Shown: positions 10,012 to 26,811 of the stretch, piece by piece
How positions within the stretch are numbered: position 1 is the stretch's first letter
Layout: the number at the start of each line of letters is the position of its first letter
Position numbers and translations under genes: made by a program
Source: Candidatus Calescibacterium sp.
GTDB lineage: Bacteria; Calescibacteriota; Calescibacteriia; Calescibacteriales; Calescibacteriaceae
Direction of reading: 5' to 3'
DNA length: 32,081 nt
Assembly: GCA_025060505.1 (NCBI GenBank)
Contig: JANXBU010000020.1
Coordinates: 1-32,081, forward strand
Notes under the pieces: model-generated
The model's input: the letters and a program-made list of their open reading frames with translations, nothing else
What the model was told of the DNA's origin: nothing
The model's database searches: none

Positions 10012-13008
10012 TTACCTCAGAAAGCTTGCGAATATTCCGCGAGAAAAAAGATCTGCAAAGAAAATCAGGTTTTTGCTACCTCTGAAATATTTTACATCAG
10101 AAGTTGCTATTCCAAAATTTGGAGATATACCGAGAATTTCTATATCTTCTCCGGAGTTAAGGAAATCTGTCAGATGGAAGATTATCATTGCTGAAACTTT
10201 CATCTGTTTAGTGGGAGAAGCAAGTGCAACTATAGCTATATCTATATCTCTTCCGGTTCCAAATATTTCATCAATAGCTTTTGTTATTTGAACTTTTGAA
10301 ATTAAAGGATATATTCCAAAGTATATTGATTGTTCTTTTATTTTGTTAAGCTCTCCATCGAAAACTTTTATTTTGATGTATGGTCCTTGTGTTAGGAACT
10401 CAAAGATGTATCCCTGATAGATTTCAAGTATTCCACCACCTTCACCTGTTGCTACTGTTCTGATTTGTCCGTTTTGTATCTTTATTATATTTGTTGCTGT
10501 GCTGAGATAAACAAGGTCACTGGAATATGTCAAGATATCAATTGTTGGTTCCTGAATTTTTAATCTAAATCGCTCTTTCATTACAAAGTTATCTATTTCA
10601 AATGATACAATATCTACTATTGGATCCTGACACCTTGATCCAACGAGGTCTATTATGTATTTTCCAGAAAATTTTTTTATATCTACCTTAGAGATTGAGT
10701 GTATGCCTATATCGTTGTATCTTTTGTATATTTTATATTTTCTCTGCTTCAAGCTTTGTTGGTCTTGCATGTCGTAAGCAAATATTCCAGAAACATTGAA
10801 ATCCTCACCGCATCCGGGTCTTTGTAGTATTGCAACGAGGGTTTTTCCGTCGTATAGGTGCTCTATGACCGAGTATTCCGGGTGTATAACAAGATCGTAA
10901 GTTAATCCTGGTATGTCTTTGGCATCTGGTTTTACAAACAGGTGAAATGTTGTTCCCTCAAGGGCTCCGTCGTTTGAGAATTTGAGAAATTTTATTCCTT
11001 CTTTCCCAGCTGCTGAAATAAATATTCCTTCATTTGTTTGGTATCCAGATATATTGCTTGGTTGGACGTTGAAGGATTCTGAATCAATTATCTCAAGTTT
11101 GTTTCTCGAGATTTTAGAGCTAAGAATGAATCTTCCTGAGTGTATAATTAAGTTGTCAAAGTTAGCACTCAGGATATTTTTTGCATCTGTTTCTGTTAAT
11201 ATACAGTTTGTTTTCAGATTTCTTTTGATGTTTCCTGACGAAAAAATGAAAGGGTAGTAAGATATTCTTCTGCACTTTGTACCACCTACTTCGTCAAGGC
11301 AGAGTGAAGAGACAAGGCAAATTTCTCCAGTATCACATAGAGATATGTTGTTTCCTAATGTTGCATCAAATGCGTTCAGAGTGTAGGATTTCTGGGTATC
11401 TGTTAGTGTGCAGATTTCTAAATCTGGTATATCTCTTATGACCTCTGGCATATTTATATTGGTTTTAGATAATGGTGAGCAGTTACCAGATATGCAAGGC
11501 TGTACTTCAAATATGTATGTTCTGTAACTTGCTCCTCTACTGAAATCTGTTGTTGGTATCAGGAGATATATTTTCCCATCTGTATCTTTAAAAAAAAGGA
11601 ATTTTTGAGGAAGATTGTTTATTTGTATCTCAGAATTAGTTGAGCTGTTTTGATCTACTAACCATATTTTTACTGTATTGTCGTATATTATGTTGAAGGA
11701 ATGAAGCGAGATTTTGAATAGTGTATTTCTTTGGTAATGTGCAAGATATATTTTGTTGTTCTGTTCATCTGCGTAAAGACCGTATGTTCCAGAGAATTCT
11801 GACGGCATTTCAAAGGTAGAGCAACCTGTATCTCCTGGGAAGTCCGGTGGTTTGTATGGACAGAAGAAAACAAATTTTCCAAAAAAGAATACAAAGAATG
11901 TTGCTTTGTTTTGAAATGTTATAGAATCTATTTTTTCAGAGAGCCTTGTTATTTCGTTATAAGTGTTCCAGTTTATTCCAGATGCTGTTATTGGGAATAT
12001 TTTTACATTGGAGCCAGAGCCAGCGAGTAAAAATTTATCTCCTATACTTATATCCACAGATGTAAGTGTTATTATGTTTTGAAATTTGAGTCTTCCATCT
12101 TTTTCTACTTCGTATTCAGTTATTTCGTAATCTGGTTTTGATATGATTATTACGGTTGTTGGATTGAGGAATTTTGTTTGTATTTTTGGTATTGAGATTT
12201 CCATTGGTATGAATGTGAATTTTTCGAACTTCCTGAGCACGTATACAGGTTCTATGTTTTGATTCTCACATAGATTTCCTCCGTCGTCTATGACTTTTAA
12301 TCTTGGGGTATATATACCAAGTTCTTGATATGTAAAGTTGAAAGATGGTTGATCTGTTTCTCCATCTTGCGAGAATTCTCCTCCTTTATTATCTGCGTCC
12401 CATATAAATTTGAATTTACAGTTTGTTCCGGAGAGGTGGTTGAAGTTTCCGCATCTGTCATCTGTTACATCTGCTCCGAGCTGAACTGAAAATGGTGGGA
12501 GTTCTATTGGAGCTCCAGCTGGTGAGGCGATATATATTCTTACGGAGCAAGGCTGGTTACTGTATACTATTACATCTGTTTTTCCCTCTCCTTTCCCTTT
12601 TTCTTCTGTTTCAGCTGATGCTACGAACGAAAAGATTTTTGCTGGTTCTCCGGCAAATGTTATTCTCTCATTGAACGATATGGATACATTTTTTCCACCA
12701 GATGTTATTGATATAGAGTATTTATCTTCTGTAAGATTAGTATCTTGAATTTTTTCTTCTTTTTTAATTTCTCTTCTGAATATTTCTTGGTCTTCAAATT
12801 TTATGGTCACATTTTTTATTGGAGATATTGAGTATATTGATACTTGTATTGAGAAGTCGGCTGGTGATATACCGGAAAGAGGGTTTGCGAACACTTTTAC
12901 ATCTACTGGTGCAAAGTTTGCGGATTTTGATCCACATATAGCGAGTATTGTGGAGAGCGAGAAAATTGCGAGAGATGATATTATTGCGACGAGAGTTTTT
13001 GAGTCCAA
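10012..13008 (-). CDS. Large exported protein, possible lipoprotein, with PKD-like domain
   Basis: 998 residues of unknown function. An N-terminal hydrophobic segment (residues ~6-24) ends in ILAICGSKS. Cys25 could be lipidated, although isoleucine at -1 is unusual for a lipobox. Residues ~198-260 look like a PKD/Ig-type domain (FTYQELGIYTPRLKVIDDGG). The remainder is beta-rich with scattered cysteines (a cluster near LCDTGEICLVSSLCLDE) and repeated strand patterns suggestive of beta-propeller or adhesin-like folds. The start is TTG at 13008, only six bases after the CCA of tRNA-Pro; no ATG fits before the signal segment. The gene follows the HEAT gene and the tRNA on the same strand. Confidence 0.75.
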   Translation of the reverse strand: MDSKTLVAIISSLAIFSLSTILAICGSKSANFAPVDVKVFANPLSGISPADFSIQVSIYSISPIKNVTIKFEDQEIFRREIKKEEKIQDTNLTEDKYSISITSGGKNVSISFNERITFAGEPAKIFSFVASAETEEKGKGEGKTDVIVYSNQPCSVRIYIASPAGAPIELPPFSVQLGADVTDDRCGNFNHLSGTNCKFKFIWDADNKGGEFSQDGETDQPSFNFTYQELGIYTPRLKVIDDGGNLCENQNIEPVYVLRKFEKFTFIPMEISIPKIQTKFLNPTTVIIISKPDYEITEYEVEKDGRLKFQNIITLTSVDISIGDKFLLAGSGSNVKIFPITASGINWNTYNEITRLSEKIDSITFQNKATFFVFFFGKFVFFCPYKPPDFPGDTGCSTFEMPSEFSGTYGLYADEQNNKIYLAHYQRNTLFKISLHSFNIIYDNTVKIWLVDQNSSTNSEIQINNLPQKFLFFKDTDGKIYLLIPTTDFSRGASYRTYIFEVQPCISGNCSPLSKTNINMPEVIRDIPDLEICTLTDTQKSYTLNAFDATLGNNISLCDTGEICLVSSLCLDEVGGTKCRRISYYPFIFSSGNIKRNLKTNCILTETDAKNILSANFDNLIIHSGRFILSSKISRNKLEIIDSESFNVQPSNISGYQTNEGIFISAAGKEGIKFLKFSNDGALEGTTFHLFVKPDAKDIPGLTYDLVIHPEYSVIEHLYDGKTLVAILQRPGCGEDFNVSGIFAYDMQDQQSLKQRKYKIYKRYNDIGIHSISKVDIKKFSGKYIIDLVGSRCQDPIVDIVSFEIDNFVMKERFRLKIQEPTIDILTYSSDLVYLSTATNIIKIQNGQIRTVATGEGGGILEIYQGYIFEFLTQGPYIKIKVFDGELNKIKEQSIYFGIYPLISKVQITKAIDEIFGTGRDIDIAIVALASPTKQMKVSAMIIFHLTDFLNSGEDIEILGISPNFGIATSDVKYFRGSKNLIFFADLFSRGIFASFLR

Positions 13009-15961: not shown

Positions 15962-16049
15962 TTATTTTGAGTTTTTCAGGCTTCAGTTTCAATTTCTCTA
16001 TTCTTTTTCTGATTTTCATATTCTAAATCTGGATTTTATATTTTAGTTT

Positions 16050-16883
16050 ATGGTTGATGTTGCAGTTATTCCGGCGGCTGGATTTGGAACGAGGGTTCTT
16101 CCCGCATCAAAGGTTGTTTCAAAGGAGCTTTTTCCCATATACAACAAACCTGCTATACACTACATAGTTTTGGAATGTGTTAGGGCTGGAATAAAAGAAG
16201 TCATCCTTGTTCTTTCAAAAAGGAAGATGGATATACTCAAATATTTTGAACCGGATCCGGAGCTTGAGAGATTTCTTGAAGTCAAAGGAAAACTGAGCCT
16301 GATACAGGAATTGAAGGTTTTTGAGAAAATAAAGATAGACTACGCAATTCAGGAAAAACAACTTGGTTTGGGACATGCTATTTTGTGTGCAAAAGATAAA
16401 GTAAAAGATAGAAATTTTGCTGTTTTGCTTCCAGATGATATTTACATTGCAGAAGGTAAAATAGGAGTTATTGAAAAGCTTATTGAAGTTTTTGAATCAG
16501 AAAAGCCAGATGGCGGAGTTGTTCTTGTGAAGAAGGTTCCAAAAGATAAAGTAAGTAAATACGGAATAATAGTTCCATCAAGAAAGCACAAGAACTTAAT
16601 ATACATTTCCGGTGTTGTTGAGAAACCGAGTTCTTCCGAAGCTCCATCTTTATATGCTGTGGTTGGAAGGTATGTCTTTACTCCAAAGATATTCGATTGG
16701 ATTGAATCAGAGAAATTTGATAGAGCGGGGGAGATTCAGCTTGCTGGTGCATTCGGGAGATTTTCAAAAGAAATTTCCGGCTCAGTTATAGCATGTCAGA
16801 TTCAGGGTAAGTGGCTTGATATAGGTTCTCCAGATGGATATATAACGGCTTTCAAGGAAATAGCTAGAATGAAAATTGTTTGA
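16050..16883 (+). CDS. galU: UTP--glucose-1-phosphate uridylyltransferase
   Basis: Makes UDP-glucose from UTP and glucose-1-phosphate for surface polysaccharides. The nucleotide-binding signature IPAAGFGTRVLPASKVVSKEL (residues 7-27) is followed by IQEKQLGLGHAILCAK, LLPDDIYI with the metal-binding aspartate, the VVEKPSSSEAPS segment and GEIQLAGA. 277 residues, normal for bacterial GalU. No Shine-Dalgarno: TATTTT ends six bases before the ATG, suggesting a leaderless start. A duplication starts inside its last codons. Confidence 0.94.
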   Translation: MVDVAVIPAAGFGTRVLPASKVVSKELFPIYNKPAIHYIVLECVRAGIKEVILVLSKRKMDILKYFEPDPELERFLEVKGKLSLIQELKVFEKIKIDYAIQEKQLGLGHAILCAKDKVKDRNFAVLLPDDIYIAEGKIGVIEKLIEVFESEKPDGGVVLVKKVPKDKVSKYGIIVPSRKHKNLIYISGVVEKPSSSEAPSLYAVVGRYVFTPKIFDWIESEKFDRAGEIQLAGAFGRFSKEISGSVIACQIQGKWLDIGSPDGYITAFKEIARMKIV

Positions 16884-16909
16884 GATAAGAATGAAAATTG
16901 TTTGAGATA
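16866..16909 (+). repeat. Perfect 22-base tandem duplication across the galU stop
   Basis: AGAATGAAAATTGTTTGAGATA occurs at 16866-16887 and again at 16888-16909. The first copy contains the last galU codons (MKIV) and the stop; the second repeats them outside the gene. Confidence 0.9.
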
Positions 16910-17115
16910 AAGTTTTGGAACTAAGATTATAGCAACGAGTCCAAAAAAGCCTATTTATATTTTGGATAAAATGAATGAATAATTTGTTGAGTTTTTGATT
17001 GCTATTGCTTTGATTCTTGATTTGTTTGCGTTTTTCAGACGGATTGTCAAAAAGATTGGCTCTATTCGTTTGGTGTCTATCAAAATGGACGAATTCTTAT
17101 TAAGATATAAATACT

Positions 17116-18351
17116 ATGTTGAGAGCCATGGTTATTTCTGTTGGGACTGGTAGAGATAGGCAAGACATAGCATCGGCTATAGTTGGACTTATAAAACGGC
17201 ATAGACCTGAGTATGTTATGTTTATTGCAACGCAGAAGTCAAAGGATGAAACTATTCCTATTATAACCGAGTCAATAGAATCAGAAAAAATAACTTATGA
17301 AATTAAGCTGATATCTGATGAAAATGATTTTGAGAAGATTTTTGGTGAATGTGTTGAATATCTTAAAGATCTCTTATCTAATTTCGAAGCTGATGAGATA
17401 CAGGTTGATTATACTTCTGGTACGAAAGCTATGTCTGTTGGTCTTGTTCTTTCCGCATTGGAACTTGAAGTGGGAGGATTATCCTATATTCACGGTCAAA
17501 GAGATCAAACAGGTAGAGTCCAGACTGGTACAGAGCGGTATCTTTCTTTTCCTCCAAACAGAATATATTCTTCAAGAATATTCAGAGAAGCCAAGCGCTT
17601 TTTCAATATTTACAGATATGATTCAGCTTATGAGCTAGCTGAGAAATTAAAAATTTCCAATCAGAATGAAGTAACTATTTTCAAAAAGCTTTGCGAAGCA
17701 TACTCTGGTTGGGATAAGTTTAATTTAAAGAAGTCTTTTGAGATTCTCAAGGAAATTACAGAGTCAGACAAAGACGATGTTCTTTCCAAGTGGAATATAA
17801 AGCAAAAGTTGGAGAAACACAAACAAATTCTCTACAAAGAATTGAAAAATCCGTTTTGTGAGGAGAAGATGGTAGACCTATTTGCCAATGCTAAAAGAAG
17901 ATATGAAGAGGGAAAATATGACGATTCAGTTGCAAGGCTATACAGACTTATTGAGTATATAGCACAGTTTCGTATAAGTCAGAAAGGACTTTACTACCAG
18001 TCAAATGGGAGACCAGATACAAGTCGTATAGATATTTCAAAGCTCAGTCCTGAAATTCAGGAAAAATACAGGTCAGAGAGACTTGCGCTTACTCGTTCTT
18101 ATGAACTCCTGAGCGATGTTGGGGATGAATTAGGAAAGAAGATTTACTCCGATATTCAGGATAAAGATGGAAAATTGAAAGCTCTTTTGGGTATAAGAAA
18201 TAAGTCTATTCTTGCCCACGGCTTTGATCCGATAGAAAAAGATACATGCTCAGATATGATGAGTTACGTTGAAGATATTCTTATAAAAGATATTGGTATA
18301 AACAAGAGTTTGTTTTCAGAAATAGAATTTCCAAAATTAGAGGTGATATGA
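17116..18351 (+). CDS. CRISPR-associated CARF-HEPN ribonuclease, Cas02710 (Csm6/Csx1-like) family
   Basis: 411 residues. The N-terminal CARF domain (~1-150) has the first strand MVISVGTGRD and the family motif DYTSGTKAMSVGL at 98-110, which in this family helps bind cyclic oligoadenylate. The C-terminal helical domain carries R361-NKSILA-H368, an R-x6-H motif as in HEPN ribonucleases. Family knowledge: type III CRISPR Cas10 makes cyclic oligoadenylate that activates such RNases. Cas10 and all other cas genes are missing here, but a CRISPR array lies 247 bases downstream. TATAAAT ends three bases before the ATG, so the transcript may be leaderless. Confidence 0.85.
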   Translation: MLRAMVISVGTGRDRQDIASAIVGLIKRHRPEYVMFIATQKSKDETIPIITESIESEKITYEIKLISDENDFEKIFGECVEYLKDLLSNFEADEIQVDYTSGTKAMSVGLVLSALELEVGGLSYIHGQRDQTGRVQTGTERYLSFPPNRIYSSRIFREAKRFFNIYRYDSAYELAEKLKISNQNEVTIFKKLCEAYSGWDKFNLKKSFEILKEITESDKDDVLSKWNIKQKLEKHKQILYKELKNPFCEEKMVDLFANAKRRYEEGKYDDSVARLYRLIEYIAQFRISQKGLYYQSNGRPDTSRIDISKLSPEIQEKYRSERLALTRSYELLSDVGDELGKKIYSDIQDKDGKLKALLGIRNKSILAHGFDPIEKDTCSDMMSYVEDILIKDIGINKSLFSEIEFPKLEVI

Positions 18352-18597
18352 GTCCAGATGAATTTATTCTGAAAGGGTAAATCTTCTGATTTGGTAAGAA
18401 AGGAATTGGAGAGAATACTTTCCAGCAGGGTTCATCAAAGTTTTGTTTATTGTCATACTATTTTATTTTTTAATCATATTTTTTAATGATGAGCGAAGAA
18501 TTGAGGTAGGGGGAGGGGGTAGGCGATTTTTTGAGGGGGGCTGCCAAAATTGGCTCTGGACCCATTGAAAATCAAGGGCTCCGGAGGGTAGCTCTCA
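18352..18597. other. Region between the CARF gene and the CRISPR array, with a G-rich block
   Basis: The left part is AT-rich (ATTTTATTTTTTAATCATAT at about 18460-18480), like a CRISPR leader. The right part is unusually G-rich for this genome: five-G runs at 18509-18513 and 18515-18519, short GG pairs on both sides and a six-G run at 18535-18540. The last ~50 bases (GGCTCTGGACCC, ATTGAAAATC) weakly recall the repeat that follows and may be an eroded repeat. No coding region is seen. Confidence 0.4.
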
Positions 18598-18840
18598 GAA
18601 ACCAGACCCGTACATAAGGGGATTGCGACACATCAGATAAATCAAGATACTCTAATTGAACTCTACACCAGACCCGTACATAAGGGGATTGCGACCCCAT
18701 GAATCTTGTCTGGAAAGCATTTGGCAATTCAAGAAACCAGACCCGTACATAAGGGATTGCGACCTGGGGTCAAACACTCTTATCAATATGAATGACCCAT
18801 CCGGCTCAGAAACCAGACCCGTACATAAGGGGATTGCGAC
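18598..18840 (+). CRISPR. Short degenerate CRISPR array (four repeats, three spacers)
   Basis: Repeats are at 18598-18629, 18664-18695, 18733-18763 and 18809-18840. The 32-base consensus begins GAAACCAGACCCGTAC and ends AAGGGGATTGCGAC. Repeat 2 differs in its first three bases and repeat 3 has lost one G. Copies 1 and 4 also share the preceding bases CTCA, so the true repeat may be ~36 bases. Spacers are 34, 37 and 45 bases and unrelated. The ATTGCGAC end resembles the ATTGAAAC 5' handle of many type I-B/III repeats, so plus is the likely transcribed strand. CCC and GGG around GTACATAA can form a weak hairpin. No Cas1/Cas2 in the window. Confidence 0.9.
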
Positions 18841-18844
18841 ATGT

Positions 18845-19484
18845 ATGGGAGATACACAAGTTTTATGTAAAGCAACTATACAACAGGGGCAAACCACCAC
18901 ACCTTAAAGGGACAAATTTTGGCTGTATCACTGCGGAATACTTTATGTTACCACAAGCGTCATCACAACAACGTAATCCAAGGCAACAACAACTTACAAG
19001 TGGCCTTAGTAAAGAAATTTCCAGAATCATTGTTAGGTCATTACGCGCAGTAGTAAACCTTGACCTACTTGAACCTAACTATAATTGTTGACTGTGATGT
19101 GCTTCAAGCTGACGGTGGTACAAGAACATCAGCTATAAACGATGCATTTGTTACACTTTATGATCTTTTTCAAAAGTTAGTTATTGGATGCAAACTCACA
19201 CAAGATCCTATAACAAAATTTATAGGTAGCATTTCTGTTGGTATGGTTTGTGGTAAAAAAATTGCTGACTTATCACAAAAAGAAGATAATGAAGCAGAAG
19301 TTGATATGACACTTGCTATGACTGAAGATAAAGAACTTGTTGAACTACAATTTACTGCAGAGAAAAATTGTATGATTTAAAACTACTAAATGAACTTATA
19401 AATCTTGGTTGGAGAAGTTTAGCAAAAATTATTCGTCTTGAAAAAGGATGTTTAATCATAACAAAACTTGTTATAACATTATGA
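18845..19484 (+). pseudogene. rph: rph pseudogene (RNase PH), N-terminus missing, frameshifted
   Basis: RNase PH trims tRNA 3' ends with phosphate. The homology is split over three frames: MGDTQVLCKATIQQG (from 18845), then KPPHLKGTNFGCITAEYFML and ISRIIVRSLRAVVNLDLL, then IIVDCDVLQADGGTRTSAI, SVGMVCGKKIADL, EAEVDMTLAMT and VELQFTAEK, and finally LKLLNELINLGWRSLAKI. Shifts fall near 18890, 19080 and 19367. About 33 N-terminal residues expected before MGDT are absent; instead a CRISPR repeat ends four bases upstream. The reconstructed stop overlaps the pyrF ATG (ATGA), so the donor had an rph-pyrF operon. Confidence 0.88.
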
Positions 19485-20118
19485 GTACAAAACTTGTAAT
19501 TGCACTTGATACAGAAATAAAAAAAGCTAAAGAAATTGTCAAGCAGGCAGTAGAGTATAAATTTAACCTATTCAAAATAGGACACTTATTGTTTGATACT
19601 CAACCACAAATTATTGATTATATTTCCAGCTTAGGTGGCAATGTTATACTTGGTTTAAAATTTCATCATATACCTTCAGTGATAGGGAAAGCTGTGAAAG
19701 AAATTTTAAATAAATATAAAATCTTTGGTTTAACTGTGCATAGTTTAGGTAGAAAAAATTGTTAGAAGAAGTAGTAGCCACAGTTTCACAATTTAAACCG
19801 AAACCTTTAGTTTTTGTAGTAACAATACTTACAAGTATAAACCAACACGAACTTGAAAAACTTGGGTTTAAAAATAAACTTATTGATTGTTGTGTTTAAC
19901 CTTGCAAAACTTGCAAAACAGTGTAGGACAGACGGTATTGTATTTTCACCAGTTGAAGTTATTAAGAAAACTTTAGGAAAGAAATTTCTAAAATTAGTCC
20001 CAGGCGTAAGTATAAAAATAAAAATATTGACCAAAACAGGACTACCACAATTGAGAAAGTAATCTCGTCAGGTGCAGATTGTTATATGAAGAAGTATTTA
20101 CGAAACTCAAAATTTTAA
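19481..20118 (+). pseudogene. pyrF: pyrF pseudogene (orotidine-5'-phosphate decarboxylase), frameshifted
   Basis: Starts MSTKLVIALDTEIKKAKEI with the KIGHLLFDTQP strand and LGLKFHHIPSVIGKA, equivalent to the catalytic DLKFHDIP block. The frame breaks near 19750 at an A run. It resumes as LLEEVVATVSQFKPKPLVF and VTILTSINQHELEKLG, breaks near 19890, and continues FNLAKLAKQCRTDGIVFSP and LVPGVSIK. After a third break near 20020 it ends IDQNRTTTIEKVISSGADCY, the phosphate-binding end of the enzyme. At least three frameshifts, plus H for D in the catalytic block, show it is dead unless the shifts are sequencing errors. Confidence 0.87.
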
Positions 20119-20141
20119 AAATACATTATAAAAATACATTA
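20117..20141 (+). repeat. 13-base-period tandem repeat before the methyltransferase gene
   Basis: AAAAATACATTA occurs at 20117-20128 and 20130-20141, just after the pyrF remnant and 30 bases before the methyltransferase ATG. It may mark the left border of the restriction-modification pair or be AT-rich slippage. Confidence 0.6.
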
Positions 20142-20170
20142 AAAATTTAAAGTTTAATAAAAGATAACTT

Positions 20171-21304
20171 ATGAACAAAGAACTTCAATTGTTGTTATTA
20201 CCAGAAAAAAAAGAAGTTCCTCTGGTGAAACAGGTTATATTAAATAAAGATAAATTTATACAAATATTAAATAAAATTCTACACATTAACGATCTGGTGG
20301 ATATAACAAAAGAGATTGCTGTGCTTAGGGATATTATAGGAGATTATAAAAAAGACAATATAGGGATTTTGAATATTACCAATGATGGAAATACAGTTGT
20401 TCTAAGGCAAGACGTGTTGATTTCAGAATTAACAAAAATAATTGAAGCACAAACGATAGAACGTGCAAAATATTATATAAAAAGGTTAAAAGAAGGTGTA
20501 GAAAAAGTAAAAACAACAAAAATAAATGATATAAACCTTTTAAGATGGAAAGAATACGACGAAATAATCACAGATAGTCTATGGATACTTAAAAAACGAG
20601 ATTCTTCTGGCGCACATCTTGGATGGTACTGGGGTAATTTTATACCACAAATACCACACCAGATGATGTTAAGATATACTAAAAAAGACGAGTGGGTACT
20701 AGACCCTTTTGTGGGAAGTGGAACTACATTGATAGAATGCAGACGATTAGGCAGAAATGGTATTGGAATAGAACTTAATCCAGAAGTAGCTGAAAAAGCA
20801 AAACGGTTAGTTGAAAAAGAAGAAAATAAATATCAGGTCATCACAGAGATAATTGTAGGAGATAGTAGAACTATCGGAATGAAACAAATTCTTGATAAAC
20901 ATAAAATAAATAAAGTTCAACTATTAATTATGCATCCTCCATATCACGATATTATAAAATTCTCAAAAGACCCAAGAGACCTTTCAAACGCGAGAAATTT
21001 AGGAAAATTTTTAAAAATGTTTAATGAAGTACTGCAAAATACAATACCTTTTTTAGAAAAAGACCGATATTTTGTATTAGTAATAGGAGATAAATATTCA
21101 AAAGGTGAATGGATACCCTTAGGATTTTATTGTATGCAGGAAGTCTTAAACACAAAAGAATTTATATTAAAAAGTATAATAGTAAAAAATTTCGAGGAAA
21201 CAAGGGGTAAAAGAAATCAGAAAGAACTTTGGCGGTACCGTGCATTAGTTGGTGGATTTTATGTATTTAAGCACGAGTATATAATGGTTTTTAAGAAAAA
21301 ATAA
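20171..21304 (+). CDS. DNA adenine/cytosine-N4 methyltransferase of a type II restriction-modification pair
   Basis: 377 residues. The AdoMet-binding motif I DPFVGSGTTLIEC is at 178-190, followed by GIGIELNP. The catalytic motif IV is HPPYHDI at 255-261, where most relatives have N/S/D-PPY. Motif I precedes motif IV by ~75 residues, unlike the IV-then-I order of the common beta-class N6_N4 enzymes. The N-terminal ~130 residues show no known motif and may recognise DNA. The stop lies five bases before the endonuclease-like gene. Codon use (TTA, ATA, AGA, AAA) is more AT-rich than the host genes. No Shine-Dalgarno. Confidence 0.82.
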   Translation: MNKELQLLLLPEKKEVPLVKQVILNKDKFIQILNKILHINDLVDITKEIAVLRDIIGDYKKDNIGILNITNDGNTVVLRQDVLISELTKIIEAQTIERAKYYIKRLKEGVEKVKTTKINDINLLRWKEYDEIITDSLWILKKRDSSGAHLGWYWGNFIPQIPHQMMLRYTKKDEWVLDPFVGSGTTLIECRRLGRNGIGIELNPEVAEKAKRLVEKEENKYQVITEIIVGDSRTIGMKQILDKHKINKVQLLIMHPPYHDIIKFSKDPRDLSNARNLGKFLKMFNEVLQNTIPFLEKDRYFVLVIGDKYSKGEWIPLGFYCMQEVLNTKEFILKSIIVKNFEETRGKRNQKELWRYRALVGGFYVFKHEYIMVFKKK

Positions 21305-21309
21305 CTTAT

Positions 21310-22143
21310 ATGCCTTTATTTAGTGAAAAAGAAATATTAAATCTAAAGTTAAATTCATTATATCTAACTGATTTGAAGGAGTTAGCTTTATTATATAACA
21401 TAAGAAAATCTTCTTCCGCAAGCGAAATCATAAAAAGTATTTTAGAGAAAAATATCTCAGAAAAAGATTTAGACGATTTTATTAAACAAAAGTATGCCAC
21501 TAAAATTGCTGAAAGAAGAAAAATTATCTCAGATACAGAATTAAAAAGAGAGTTATTAAAAGTACAAACTTTTTCTTGGGGAGTAATCCAAGGACAATTA
21601 GACTGGAAAATACAAACTGAATATGTACGCAAAATAGTACGATATGATGAATTATTAAAATCTGTAAAATCAAATCTTTATAATGATATAACAAATTATG
21701 TAATATGTACTTGGTTTAACCATTGGACAACAGTTCTTATTGAAGAACATATTTCTTTACATCCAAAAGTAATTCCTACAATAAAAAATGTAAAGGGGAT
21801 AGATATATTCTTTGACAACCAACCTTTTGATTTAAAAATAACATATTTACCTCGTGGATATAACCCTGATGATGCAGTTAAAAATCCTAAACAATTAGCT
21901 ATATGGTTATATGAGAATCAGGGTGAACAAAGGTTTGGTTCTGACAACAGATTATTTGTTGTGGTATTAGACAAAGAAAATATAGATGAAAGTTGGAAGT
22001 TAAAAAGAGATTTTGATTTTGTATTTCAAAAAATCGATGAGTTTTTAGATAAAGAAAAAGTGTCAAAAAATGATGAAATAGTTTTTTCTTATAAAAGAAA
22101 AACTTATACTGCAATTACAAAAATTTTAATGATAACAAAATAA
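21310..22143 (+). CDS. Putative type II restriction endonuclease (PD-(D/E)xK fold)
   Basis: 277 residues. Residues ~12-46 form a small helical, SAP/HeH-like segment (LKLNSLYLTDLKELALLY). A PD-(D/E)xK-type active site is plausible at GID165 ... D174-L-K176 (KGIDIFFDNQPFDLKITYLP). A long charged helical region precedes it, and the C-terminus is a strand-helix mix with no signal peptide. Pairing with the methyltransferase (same strand, five-base gap) and matching codon use support a restriction-modification system. The recognition site and subfamily are unknown, and the endonuclease role is inferred from the motif and the partner gene. Confidence 0.68.
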   Translation: MPLFSEKEILNLKLNSLYLTDLKELALLYNIRKSSSASEIIKSILEKNISEKDLDDFIKQKYATKIAERRKIISDTELKRELLKVQTFSWGVIQGQLDWKIQTEYVRKIVRYDELLKSVKSNLYNDITNYVICTWFNHWTTVLIEEHISLHPKVIPTIKNVKGIDIFFDNQPFDLKITYLPRGYNPDDAVKNPKQLAIWLYENQGEQRFGSDNRLFVVVLDKENIDESWKLKRDFDFVFQKIDEFLDKEKVSKNDEIVFSYKRKTYTAITKILMITK

Positions 22144-22152
22144 ATATAAATC

Positions 22153-22338
22153 ACGAGCTACTTGGTTTTAGCACGAAAATATGGTCTACAAACATTCTCA
22201 CAAATTATAGGATAAGAACATATTATTACTACACTTAAAAACGCACTAAAGTCAGGTATAGTATGGTACGCACATATTTTTTCAGGTATGCGCGGAACAG
22301 GTAAAACTACTACTGCTCGTGTATTAGCAAAAGCAGTG
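22153..22338 (+). pseudogene. dnaX: dnaX fragment (DNA polymerase III gamma/tau N-terminus)
   Basis: The plus strand encodes SYLVLARKYGLQTFSQIIG, an in-frame TAA where DnaX normally has Q, then [14 protein letters not shown] and [19 protein letters not shown] with the Walker A motif. It matches the DnaX N-terminus (Y-x-VLARKYRPQTF-x-x-IGQEH). The start codon appears as ACG at 22153 and homology stops after AKAV at ~22338. Only ~60 of several hundred codons remain, cut off at the right border of the foreign block. Confidence 0.88.
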
Positions 22339-22577
22339 TTTCCTTGTTTCCGACTCTTACTTAAACTTGCTCTTTGTAAATTCTTCTGTGAGATTGGAAA
22401 CTTTTGTTATACTGAATTCTCCAACTCACAAATCAATTGAATCAAACAATTCAGAAAACATATGATCTTGCTTTTTGAATTCTCGGTCGTTTTTTCAGGT
22501 TAGTTTCTTTCTTTGAGTTCAGGTAAAAACCTGCAAAATCATAAAGCAAAATTTTCGCTGAAAATTTATTTTGAAAT
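22339..22577. other. Gap between the foreign block and the FNR gene
   Basis: No coding region is seen. A perfect small hairpin CAGGT-AAAA-ACCTG lies at 22520-22533, and TATTTT ends five bases before the FNR start, a likely promoter element. The composition returns to that of the host. Confidence 0.45.
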
Positions 22578-23324
22578 ATGAGTCAATTCCCGCAAGCAGA
22601 GCTTATAGAAAGAATTGATTTCTCGGAAGATCTCGGAATGTTCAAGTTTCGTCCCATTGATATGCAAAAACCTAACTTCATTCCAGGTCAATATGCTACA
22701 ATAGGTCTTGAGGGAGACGATGGTAAAATAATATGGCGACCGTATTCGATTGTCTCTTCTCCCTACGAAGATTTCATTGAATTTTACATTGAGCTTGTTC
22801 CAAATGGAAAACTTACTCCACGAATCTGGAAACTCAAAGTTGGAGATAAAGTATGGATAAGACCAAGAATAGTCGGAAAGTTCAATCTGGTTCAAGAAGT
22901 AAAAAAACATATATTTGCTGCTACTGTTACTGGTGCTGCTCCATTCATAAGTATGATAAGAACTCAGATATATGACCTTGAAGCTGGAAGACTCAAAGAA
23001 CCTCACAGATTCCTTTTTATTCATGGAGCCTCCAGATCAAAAGAGCTCGGAATATACAGAAATGAACTCACTGAAATCTCAAAAAAATTTGACTGGTTGA
23101 TCTATATCCCAACTGTGTCGCGTCCGTGGGAAGACCCCGAATGGACTGGTGAAACTGGTAGAGTAGAGGATGTAATAAGAAAGTACTCAGATATGTACTT
23201 ATTCAGTTATAAGGATTCTGTTGTGTATGCGTGTGGAAATCCAGATATGATACAGAATGTCAAAGGAGTTATGAAAAGAGCAAAGTTCCCAGAAGACAAA
23301 ATAGAAGAGGAGAAATATTATTGA
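22578..23324 (+). CDS. Ferredoxin--NADP+ reductase-type flavoprotein
   Basis: 248 residues, FAD/NAD(P)-binding oxidoreductase. FAD is held by RPYSIVSSPYE (residues ~54-64), after PGQYATIGL. The NAD(P) domain starts at about 110 with FAATVTGAAPFISM and includes LFIHGASRSKELGY-like sequence, a YIPTVSRPW strand and VYACGNPDMIQNVK near the end. It resembles bacterial Fpr/FNR enzymes that exchange electrons between NADPH and ferredoxin or flavodoxin. The stop overlaps the adk start (TGATG), so the two form an operon. No Shine-Dalgarno at the ATG. Confidence 0.88.
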   Translation: MSQFPQAELIERIDFSEDLGMFKFRPIDMQKPNFIPGQYATIGLEGDDGKIIWRPYSIVSSPYEDFIEFYIELVPNGKLTPRIWKLKVGDKVWIRPRIVGKFNLVQEVKKHIFAATVTGAAPFISMIRTQIYDLEAGRLKEPHRFLFIHGASRSKELGIYRNELTEISKKFDWLIYIPTVSRPWEDPEWTGETGRVEDVIRKYSDMYLFSYKDSVVYACGNPDMIQNVKGVMKRAKFPEDKIEEEKYY

Positions 23325-23974
23325 TGCAAGATAAAATTGTTCTGATATTTTTTGGTCCTCCCGGAAGTGGTAAGGGAACACAAGGCAAGATAATATCTCA
23401 GAGGTTGGGTATACCACATATCGCAACGGGAGACATAATGCGAGAGGCTGTCGCAAATGAAACAGAACTCGGAAAAAAAGTCAAAGATTATCTTGGTAGA
23501 GGTCTCCTTGTTCCAGATGAAATTGTCATTCAAATTATAGAAGAAAGACTTAAAAGAGATGATGTGAAAAAAGGTTTTATTTTAGATGGTTTTCCAAGAA
23601 CCGTTGAGCAAGCCAGAGCCCTTGAAGGTCTCTTCAAAAAGCTTTCAATACAAAATTACATGGTTTTATACTTTGATGTTCCAGATGAGGATATAATCAA
23701 AAGGATTTCTGGTAGAAGGTCTTGTGTTAAGTGTGGCTCAGTTTACAATGTCTTTTTCGGACCTCCCAAAACCCCGAACAAATGTGATTCCTGTGGATCT
23801 GATCTTATTGTCAGAGAAGATGACACTGAGGAAAAAGTAAAAAAGAGATTAGATGTATATAAACAAAGTACATTGCCAGTTCTTGATTTTTATTCATCAA
23901 AGGTCAAGAAAATAAGCGCAGTTGGAAAGATTGAAGAAATAACCGAAAGTATTGTCAAAATTATACAGAATTGA
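23324..23974 (+). CDS. adk: Adenylate kinase
   Basis: Interconverts ATP + AMP and 2 ADP. The P-loop GPPGSGKGTQ is at residues 10-19, the AMP site is GDIMREAV, and DGFPRT precedes the CORE helix. The long-form LID (~125-160) carries SCVKCG and KCDSCG, a four-cysteine zinc site. 216 residues, normal length. The ATG at 23324 overlaps the FNR stop as TGATG and is preceded by GAAGAGGAG, a good Shine-Dalgarno; an upstream in-frame ATG inside FNR would add residues lacking homology. Confidence 0.96.
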   Translation: MQDKIVLIFFGPPGSGKGTQGKIISQRLGIPHIATGDIMREAVANETELGKKVKDYLGRGLLVPDEIVIQIIEERLKRDDVKKGFILDGFPRTVEQARALEGLFKKLSIQNYMVLYFDVPDEDIIKRISGRRSCVKCGSVYNVFFGPPKTPNKCDSCGSDLIVREDDTEEKVKKRLDVYKQSTLPVLDFYSSKVKKISAVGKIEEITESIVKIIQN

Positions 23975-24043
23975 GTTTCTTCGGAATAGAATTTTTGTTT
24001 TTGCAAGATATATTTCTGTATAGGTAAAATTAAATATGTATTT

Positions 24044-25480
24044 ATGCTTTTTAGTTCTTCGCCAGCTTACACGATTCTAATAAGATTGAAGTTCAAAAAC
24101 AGAGTTGGAATGCTCGGACTTGTGACTTCTGTAATTAACAATGCCGGTGGAGAGGTCAGAGGAATAATGCTTGTTGAGTCTGCGAGAGATTGGATAACCC
24201 GCGAGATACATGTAAATGTCAGAGATGGTGCTCATGCAAAAGAAGTAATCAAAAGTATTTCTCAAATTGAAGGTGTTATTGTTGAATCGGTTTCAGACAG
24301 AACATTCATCTCTCATATTGGAGGTAAGCTTGAAGTCATTTCAAAAAGAAAAATTTCAACATCAGAAGATCTTTCACGCATTTATACACCGGGAGTTGGC
24401 AGAGTTGTGAAAGCAATAGAGATGTATCCAGATACTGTTTTTACCCACACAATAAAATCAAACACTGTTGCTATTCTTACAGATGGTTCTGCAGTTCTTG
24501 GCTTTGGTAATGTTGGTCCTTACCCAGCTATACCAGTTATGGAAGGAAAAGCCGCTATAATGAAAGAATTCGCTGGAATAAATGGCTTTCCAATTTGTCT
24601 TGCAACGCAAGATGTTGATGAGATTGTATCAATTGTTCAGAAGATCTCACCGGTTTTTGGTGCTTTCAATCTTGAAGATATTGCAGCCCCAAGATGCTTT
24701 GAGATTGAAAGGAGACTCAGTGAAACCTTGGATGTTCCAGTTATGCACGATGATCAGCATGCGACAGCTATTGTGATTCTCGCCGCTCTTTTGAACTCTC
24801 TGAAAGTTGTTGGTAAGAATCTTTTTGATATAAAAATAGTCATAAACGGAATCGGTGCTGCTGGATATGCTACCGCTTCTTTGCTTTTAAAACTCGGTAT
24901 CAAAAACATGATTCTTTGCGACAAAAATGGAGCAATCGGTAGGAATGGAGAAAATGCTCTGAACGAATATCAGGTAAGTGTAGCTCAGTATACCAATGAA
25001 GAAAACTATCTTGGCGACCTAAAAGGTGCTCTCAAAGGTGCTGATGTGTTTATTGGACTCTCCGTTGGAAATATACTGAAGGCTGAGGATCTGAAAGTTA
25101 TGAACAAAGATGCTATTGTCTTTGCTCTCGCCAATCCTATCCCAGAGGTAAACCCCATTGAAGCAGAAAAGTATGTTAGGATCGTTGCTACTGGAAGATC
25201 GGATTTCCCAAATCAGATAAACAACGCAATAGTTTATCCCGGTTTCTTCAAAGGATTACTTCAATCAAGAGCTACAAAAATAAGCGATGATATGAAAATT
25301 GCTGCTGCGTATGCCATCTCACACCTTATAGATGACTCGGAACTTTATGAAGAGTACATAATACCTTCTATTTTTGATCTCAGAGTTGTAGATACAATTG
25401 CGGAAGCTGTTTCAGCAATAGCAATACGAGATGGCCTTGTAAGAAAAATAAACCCTGTCAAAGACATAGTTGAAATATAA
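24044..25480 (+). CDS. NAD(P)-dependent malic enzyme with N-terminal ACT domain
   Basis: Oxidatively decarboxylates malate to pyruvate. Residues ~8-90 form an ACT domain (ILIRLKFKNRVGMLGLVTSV), usually an amino-acid-sensing allosteric module. The malic domain has YTPGVGRVVKAI, the lysine region TIKSNTVAILTDGSAVLGFG, MEGKAAIMKEFA, DIAAPRCFEIE with metal ligands and DDQHATAIV. The NAD domain has GIGAAGYA. 478 residues. A short leader is likely, as AAATATGTATTT precedes the ATG. ACT-malic enzymes are known in several bacteria; the effector here is not evident. Confidence 0.92.
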   Translation: MLFSSSPAYTILIRLKFKNRVGMLGLVTSVINNAGGEVRGIMLVESARDWITREIHVNVRDGAHAKEVIKSISQIEGVIVESVSDRTFISHIGGKLEVISKRKISTSEDLSRIYTPGVGRVVKAIEMYPDTVFTHTIKSNTVAILTDGSAVLGFGNVGPYPAIPVMEGKAAIMKEFAGINGFPICLATQDVDEIVSIVQKISPVFGAFNLEDIAAPRCFEIERRLSETLDVPVMHDDQHATAIVILAALLNSLKVVGKNLFDIKIVINGIGAAGYATASLLLKLGIKNMILCDKNGAIGRNGENALNEYQVSVAQYTNEENYLGDLKGALKGADVFIGLSVGNILKAEDLKVMNKDAIVFALANPIPEVNPIEAEKYVRIVATGRSDFPNQINNAIVYPGFFKGLLQSRATKISDDMKIAAAYAISHLIDDSELYEEYIIPSIFDLRVVDTIAEAVSAIAIRDGLVRKINPVKDIVEI

Positions 25481-26252: not shown

Positions 26253-26811
26253 GTTAAAGATTTTTGTAATTTCATTGATTTGTTTTATATGATCTCTTGA
26301 TTTCTTTTTGATGCTTGCTGTTTGCTTTGTCTAATATCTGATAGCCTAATAAGTGTTTTTGTCTTTGACTTGCAAAAAGTTTTATAAACTTAAAGTCGGA
26401 CACAAATTCTGAATGAATATCAAACATCAGAAGGTATTTTTGTACACAGCACCTGTTGTTGGTCTGGATGATTTTTCTTTCTTTAGATACGGATATTGAT
26501 TTGTCTTAATTACGCATGACCATGAACAGATACAAAAACAAAGTTGTAAAATCTCATATATTAGTCTTAATTATACACGACCATAATTACGCGACCGTTT
26601 GCAGAGATTTTTGGCTTTCATACTTTTCAAAAGATTACATATTTTTGCGATACAGATGAACAAATTGTTTTTTATTGTTTTGCAAGATTCTCTGGTAAGA
26701 AGTTCAAATAATAAAATCGTTGATAGATCTGTGTAATTCAAGAATAATTTTCTGTTTATGTGATATACCTTGAGCAAAGTTTAAGCGGAGTATTGGAACG
26801 GTTTGTTAAGA
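26253..26811. other. Intergenic region with repeated TAATTA..CGACC elements
   Basis: About 560 bases between convergent genes, without a recognised gene. Related 21-base copies starting GTCTTAATTA lie at 26503-26523 and 26564-26584 (three differences), and a shorter third copy, TAATTACGCGACC, at 26584-26596. A 28-codon frame at 26414-26500 and a 68-codon minus frame at 26571-26777 look non-coding: no family match and no ribosome-binding site. Confidence 0.5.

Follow-up and report, generated by a model that had tools for sequence, protein, structure and literature searches.

The window analysed here, a DNA stretch of 32,081 nt, corresponds to contig C28 in a Calescibacterium-family genome bin (115 contigs, 86% complete); Candidatus Calescibacterium nevadense belongs to the same family. 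Between positions 18841 and 22338 it carries, in this order and all on one strand, a remnant of rph, a broken pyrF, a predicted DNA methyltransferase gene (M), a predicted restriction endonuclease gene (R) and the beginning of dnaX (Table 1). On the host side of this segment, the upstream neighbour is a Csm6/Csx1-type gene, for which the four family relatives gave no match, followed by a leader and a CRISPR array; the first host gene to the right encodes an FAD/NAD(P) oxidoreductase. The anatomy of the segment agreed with the initial annotation, whereas the CRISPR array at its left border had been overlooked.

Table 1 Features in and around the segment at 18841–22338 of the window.
Feature	Position	Strand	Evidence and remarks
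Csm6/Csx1-type CARF-HEPN protein gene	17116..18351	+	TIGR02710 1.4e-57 (NCBIfam); Cas_Cas02710 8.7e-29 (Pfam)
CRISPR leader, running into first repeat	18441..18601	+	common to arrays on C11 and C60
CRISPR array, four repeats CCAGACCCGTACATAAGGGGATTGCGAC, three spacers	18602..18840	+	repeats spaced, near-identical
rph (RNase PH) pseudogene	18841..19447	+	first ~30 codons missing; three frameshifts; TIGR01966
pyrF pseudogene	19481..20120	+	two frameshifts detected, one more likely; C-terminus doubtful; NF001273
M, predicted amino-type (N6-adenine or N4-cytosine) DNA methyltransferase, intact	20171..21304	+	N6_N4_Mtase, MTase_II
R, predicted restriction endonuclease, intact	21310..22143	+	SAP-like N-terminus, PD-(D/E)xK-like core
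dnaX 5' fragment	22153..22338	+	ACG at the start position; stop codon TAA in frame; truncated after ~60 codons; TIGR02397
Host FAD/NAD(P) oxidoreductase gene	22578..23324	+	all four family relatives match at 71–75% protein identity

When read through their lesions, the three housekeeping genes matched the expected protein families: rph matched RNase PH (E value 2e-53, model positions 31–233 of 236), pyrF its NF001273 model (3e-31), and the dnaX fragment the DnaX N-terminus (9e-20, positions 1–60). Frameshift-aware protein-to-DNA alignment placed shifts at about 18888, 19071 and 19366 in rph and at about 19751 and 19888 in pyrF, with placements that agreed across several homologues, and detected none in M or R. 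A sixth, likely shift near the pyrF C-terminus (~20020) was read by eye, as was the in-frame TAA within dnaX. At the dnaX start position (22153), where relatives often read MSYLVLARKYRP, the sequence is ACG, and DnaX homology ends near 22338. Both ends of the segment cut genes: the first ~30 codons of rph are missing, and of dnaX nothing is present beyond ~60 codons. The RNase PH and PyrF homology scattered over several frames and the interrupted DnaX N-terminus described in the initial annotation were borne out by these matches; where it counted three frameshifts, five were found by alignment, with one more likely.

Homopolymers (runs of G4, A5, A6 and T3) contain four of the five detected shifts, so that the shifts alone would not settle whether these genes have decayed or have been misread. 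Their placement speaks for a reading in which rph, pyrF and dnaX are alive and the shifts are homopolymer sequencing errors. We nevertheless consider this highly improbable, as the dead genes have also lost conserved residues by missense change. Of 62 rph residues shared by 90% or more of 29 homologues (chosen as best matches, which introduces a mild bias), the rph remnant had lost 14; the loss of conserved residues was 6 of 26 in pyrF and 0 of 107 in M, compared with leave-one-out maxima of 7.7% for rph and 14% for pyrF. Also against misreading are the fifth shift, which involves two bases and lies outside homopolymers, the stop and lost start of dnaX, the truncation of both end genes, and the nearby host genes, which are long and open. 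Homopolymers are as frequent in the M-R pair as in the dead genes, and shifts per homopolymer of at least 3 nt numbered 5/105 in the dead genes vs 0/159 in M-R (Fisher p 0.009). Judged by disabling lesions and by conserved-residue loss relative to intact homologues, rph, pyrF and dnaX classify as pseudogenes, as had been proposed earlier, and their changes reflect decay beyond homopolymer error alone.

The same comparison sets the M-R pair apart. If M were decaying like rph, the probability of keeping all 107 sites would be near 1e-12, and that of M-R showing no lesion over its 1968 bp, given the rate in its neighbours (taken as 8 lesions in 1465 bp), would be about 2e-5. Loss of conserved residues in R amounted to 2/35 for a wide set of homologues and 16/137 for a close set, the latter being above the figure for most members but within the span of the two most distant. 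The dN/dS ratio of M-R was uninformative, with synonymous sites near saturation.

M matched Pfam N6_N4_Mtase (6.3e-22) and, over the whole protein, the PADLOC model MTase_II PDLC03351 (2.9e-146). It contains the motif DPFVGSGTT and has both the SAM-binding and the catalytic motifs of a Type II methyltransferase. The usual motif IV in such methylases is (D/N/S)PP(Y/F/W), and in M it reads HPPY, as in nearly all aligned family members; a reading of HPPY as the mark of a dead methylase was dropped, given this family-wide occurrence.

R begins 5 bp after M and ends 9 bp before the lost start of dnaX. The earlier description of an open methyltransferase gene and an open PD-(D/E)xK gene five bases apart holds for the open frames and the spacing. 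The predicted core of R, in which E145, D165, D174 and K176 are invariant, would be compatible with PD-(D/E)xK, and the N-terminus is predicted to be SAP-like. The AlphaFold model of R had a mean pLDDT of 78 and was poor around residues 87–135. Fold matches to restriction enzymes exist, all of them weak, and no Foldseek match reached E 0.001, a result that excludes no fold. No named family model matched R, and a sequence search among solved structures found no relative. R was likewise not found in plasmid records, phage records or viral contigs, searches that recovered one full-length M relative on a viral-collection contig.

The M-R pair recurs in metagenome-assembled genomes labelled Caldiserica, Atribacteria, Omnitrophota, Elusimicrobia, Dehalococcoidia, Altarchaeum and others. 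R directly follows M in nine of ten other genomes; in the tenth, Altarchaeum (L029), R lies nearby, separated from M by a second M fragment. The neighbours differ in each of the ten genomes and are often housekeeping genes, sometimes 1–60 bp away. They include a GH57 branching enzyme (L010) and a penicillin-binding protein (L023), each 1 bp upstream of the pair, a kdotransferase 60 bp upstream (L011), a glutamyl/glutaminyl-tRNA synthetase 15 bp downstream (L014), and an adenosine-specific kinase and an aminotransferase at 33 and 30 bp (L029). In L007 and L009 the pair stands beside defence-type genes. By analogy, a donor order of pyrF-M-R-dnaX would fit this pattern of varied neighbours. Inspection by eye of the gaps beside the pair in L005, L006, L008, L009 and L014 revealed no housekeeping remnants; the gap in L006 contains the remains of a RhuM/Fic gene and that in L014 an RDD-like frame. 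Members of the M family also occur with other partners. In Ca. Calescibacterium nevadense (L004:7929-10188) the downstream gene is unrelated to R, and on a viral-collection contig (L091:3541-5846) it is again not R and is related to its counterpart in L004. These substitute genes encode 365 and 387 aa with no Pfam match and would represent partner exchange between M and nuclease genes.

DNA comparison with four family relatives indicates that both contig flanks belong to the host. The left flank (16052–16849) and the right flank (22578–25480), together with flagellar genes beyond it, have ~65–75% DNA identity to these relatives. The flank matches are scattered across the relatives' genomes and gene order is not kept, so that no syntenic empty site is available. 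Outside M, the segment has no substantial DNA match in the four relatives; the family match of M is to G004, besides weaker methylase matches. No further copy of the segment was found elsewhere in the bin. The segment is AT-richer than the host, with a GC3 of 0.21 for M and 0.16 for R vs 0.26–0.36 for host genes in the window. Many other bacterial families outscore the host relatives for both rph and pyrF, and the host's own uninterrupted pyrF frame lies on contig C22. Foreign origin and decay of the segment are well supported, and the AT-richness, the host flanks and the lack of a DNA match in relatives apart from M agree with the foreign chromosomal fragment proposed in the initial annotation.

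The initial annotation suggested looking for a genome with rph-pyrF and dnaX in this order; searches of 386 genomes with rph and with pyrF did not find the donor. The best matches in that set had 46% identity for the rph read-through and 45% for pyrF, and no pyrF or dnaX occurred in the fetched flanks (≤1.5 kb) of the 29 best foreign rph matches. A search of 19 genomes of one phylum with rph and pyrF gave neither adjacency nor better identity. Atribacteria contig L009, which has pyrF as well as M-R, was discarded as a donor candidate because this pyrF sits among pyr genes ~4.4 kb away on the other strand. Octopus Spring harbours a Calescamantes population together with a lineage of 29% G+C, 'Pyropristinus' type 2 (PMC4791363), which serves as a literature lead only.

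The segment begins at 18841, immediately behind the fourth CRISPR repeat, and no more than a few bases separate that repeat from renewed rph homology. The repeats (18602–18629, 18668–18695, 18737–18763 and 18813–18840) are near-identical and separated by unlike spacers, and they follow a leader, as in a CRISPR array. Window positions 18438–18835 match C11:900–1298 at 81% and C60:712–1082 at 79%; these two contigs carry the other arrays with this leader, which are no more than about 1.1 kb from contig ends. This border may result from integration at the trailing end, from an array copy arriving beside the fragment, or from a misjoin at the repeat. The right border at 22338 displays no repeat, target duplication or mobile gene, and the junctions have no word longer than 5 bp in common. 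In and around 18841–22338 there was neither a transposase, in line with the earlier statement on this point, nor any terminal or flanking repeat or target duplication; the segment is neither IS-flanked nor bounded by a long target duplication, as a mobile restriction-modification (R-M) unit would be. Side by side, the arrays at 18602–18840, L073:1065-1298 and L074:422-938 have one common leader and are all short. Their oldest repeats bear an extra CTCAGAAA at the 5' side that most middle repeats are without, as if a duplicated unit had shortened. C11 begins, as read by eye, with frames resembling the end of cas1 and cas2.

Taken jointly, the anatomy, the decay, the intactness of M and R, the host genes on both sides and the absence of mobile-element hallmarks are probably explained by a donor chromosomal chunk that held M-R between pyrF and dnaX and was joined at the CRISPR array, with the pair under selection. 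A Type II-like R-M pair would have settled between pyrF and dnaX in an AT-rich donor bacterium, and ~3.5 kb of the donor chromosome, with one break in rph and the other in dnaX, would have entered a Calescibacterium-family genome. Illegitimate recombination may then have joined it at the far end of the array, after which the redundant housekeeping pieces would have decayed by frameshift, stop and missense changes, with M and R staying functional under purifying selection. We infer a single donor, a single transfer, the way in which the piece was joined, and selection after transfer together with its route, defence or killing on loss. A chromosomal chunk with the pair between donor pyrF and dnaX is the most likely source because M-R elsewhere recurs beside different, often housekeeping, genes. 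Against this explanation weigh the donor searches, which yielded no donor, the position of most detected shifts in homopolymers, the loss of 16/137 residues in R and the lack of a syntenic empty site.

An assembly chimera, in which the segment came from another organism in the sample and was misjoined at a CRISPR repeat, is unlikely. Repeats can mislead an assembler, and here the border falls exactly at a repeat end, the two other arrays lie close to contig ends and the bin is fragmented; yet such a misjoin requires the segment to follow a repeat of this kind somewhere, the right border without a repeat needs a second error, and a piece of a living genome should hold working rph, pyrF and dnaX rather than decayed ones. 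It is very unlikely that M-R arrived later, in an already dead rph-pyrF-dnaX fragment, and is intact through youth rather than retention. The spacing of 1–60 bp to unrelated genes in other lineages implies that the pair inserts neatly, but the common strand and the 9 bp to dnaX resemble a former operon and M-R is similarly AT-rich, neither point being decisive. The sequence would look alike under selection after transfer and selection in the donor, and toxic loss, a phage-defence benefit and later arrival of the pair would all predict the same sequence. That the locus is an intermediate of selfish retention, with donor DNA at the trailing edge of the array and the R-M pair alone kept since its loss kills the cell, is a tentative and rather doubtful reading.

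Type II R-M complexes are known to move between genomes and to resist loss (Kobayashi and colleagues; PMC3031569, PMC3874152), and cells losing such pairs were killed in laboratory work, a process termed post-segregational killing (PMC3031569). Like these mobile complexes, M-R is compact, spans distant lineages and has different neighbours each time; unlike them, it is flanked here by dead donor housekeeping genes, with no IS, long target duplication or vector visible. The decay of redundant foreign housekeeping genes by frameshift, stop and missense changes resembles that of acquired pseudogene fragments, which differ in having no intact defence gene pair mid-piece. With a CRISPR array and a Csm6/Csx1 gene next to it, the R-M pair also recalls a defence island, but M-R is embedded in dead housekeeping DNA, and for this reason the defence-gene neighbourhood may be chance. 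The segment is a tidy example of a known process, not a new kind of system. R-M genes spread across distant lineages, often without a visible vector. That dead donor genes still surround this copy suggests that such genes can travel on plain chromosomal fragments, for which the habit of M-R of adjoining unrelated and often housekeeping genes would provide a natural route. Selfish retention, if true, would provide a natural case for an argument resting mainly on laboratory plasmids.

No Rfam match was found in 16000–24000. Elsewhere in the window, a 998-aa open frame on the minus strand (10012–13008) had no match in Pfam or NCBIfam. A stretch of ~75–130 bp at 26322–26451 is a dispersed repeat: it recurs at 72–78% identity on a minimum of seven further contigs from this genome.
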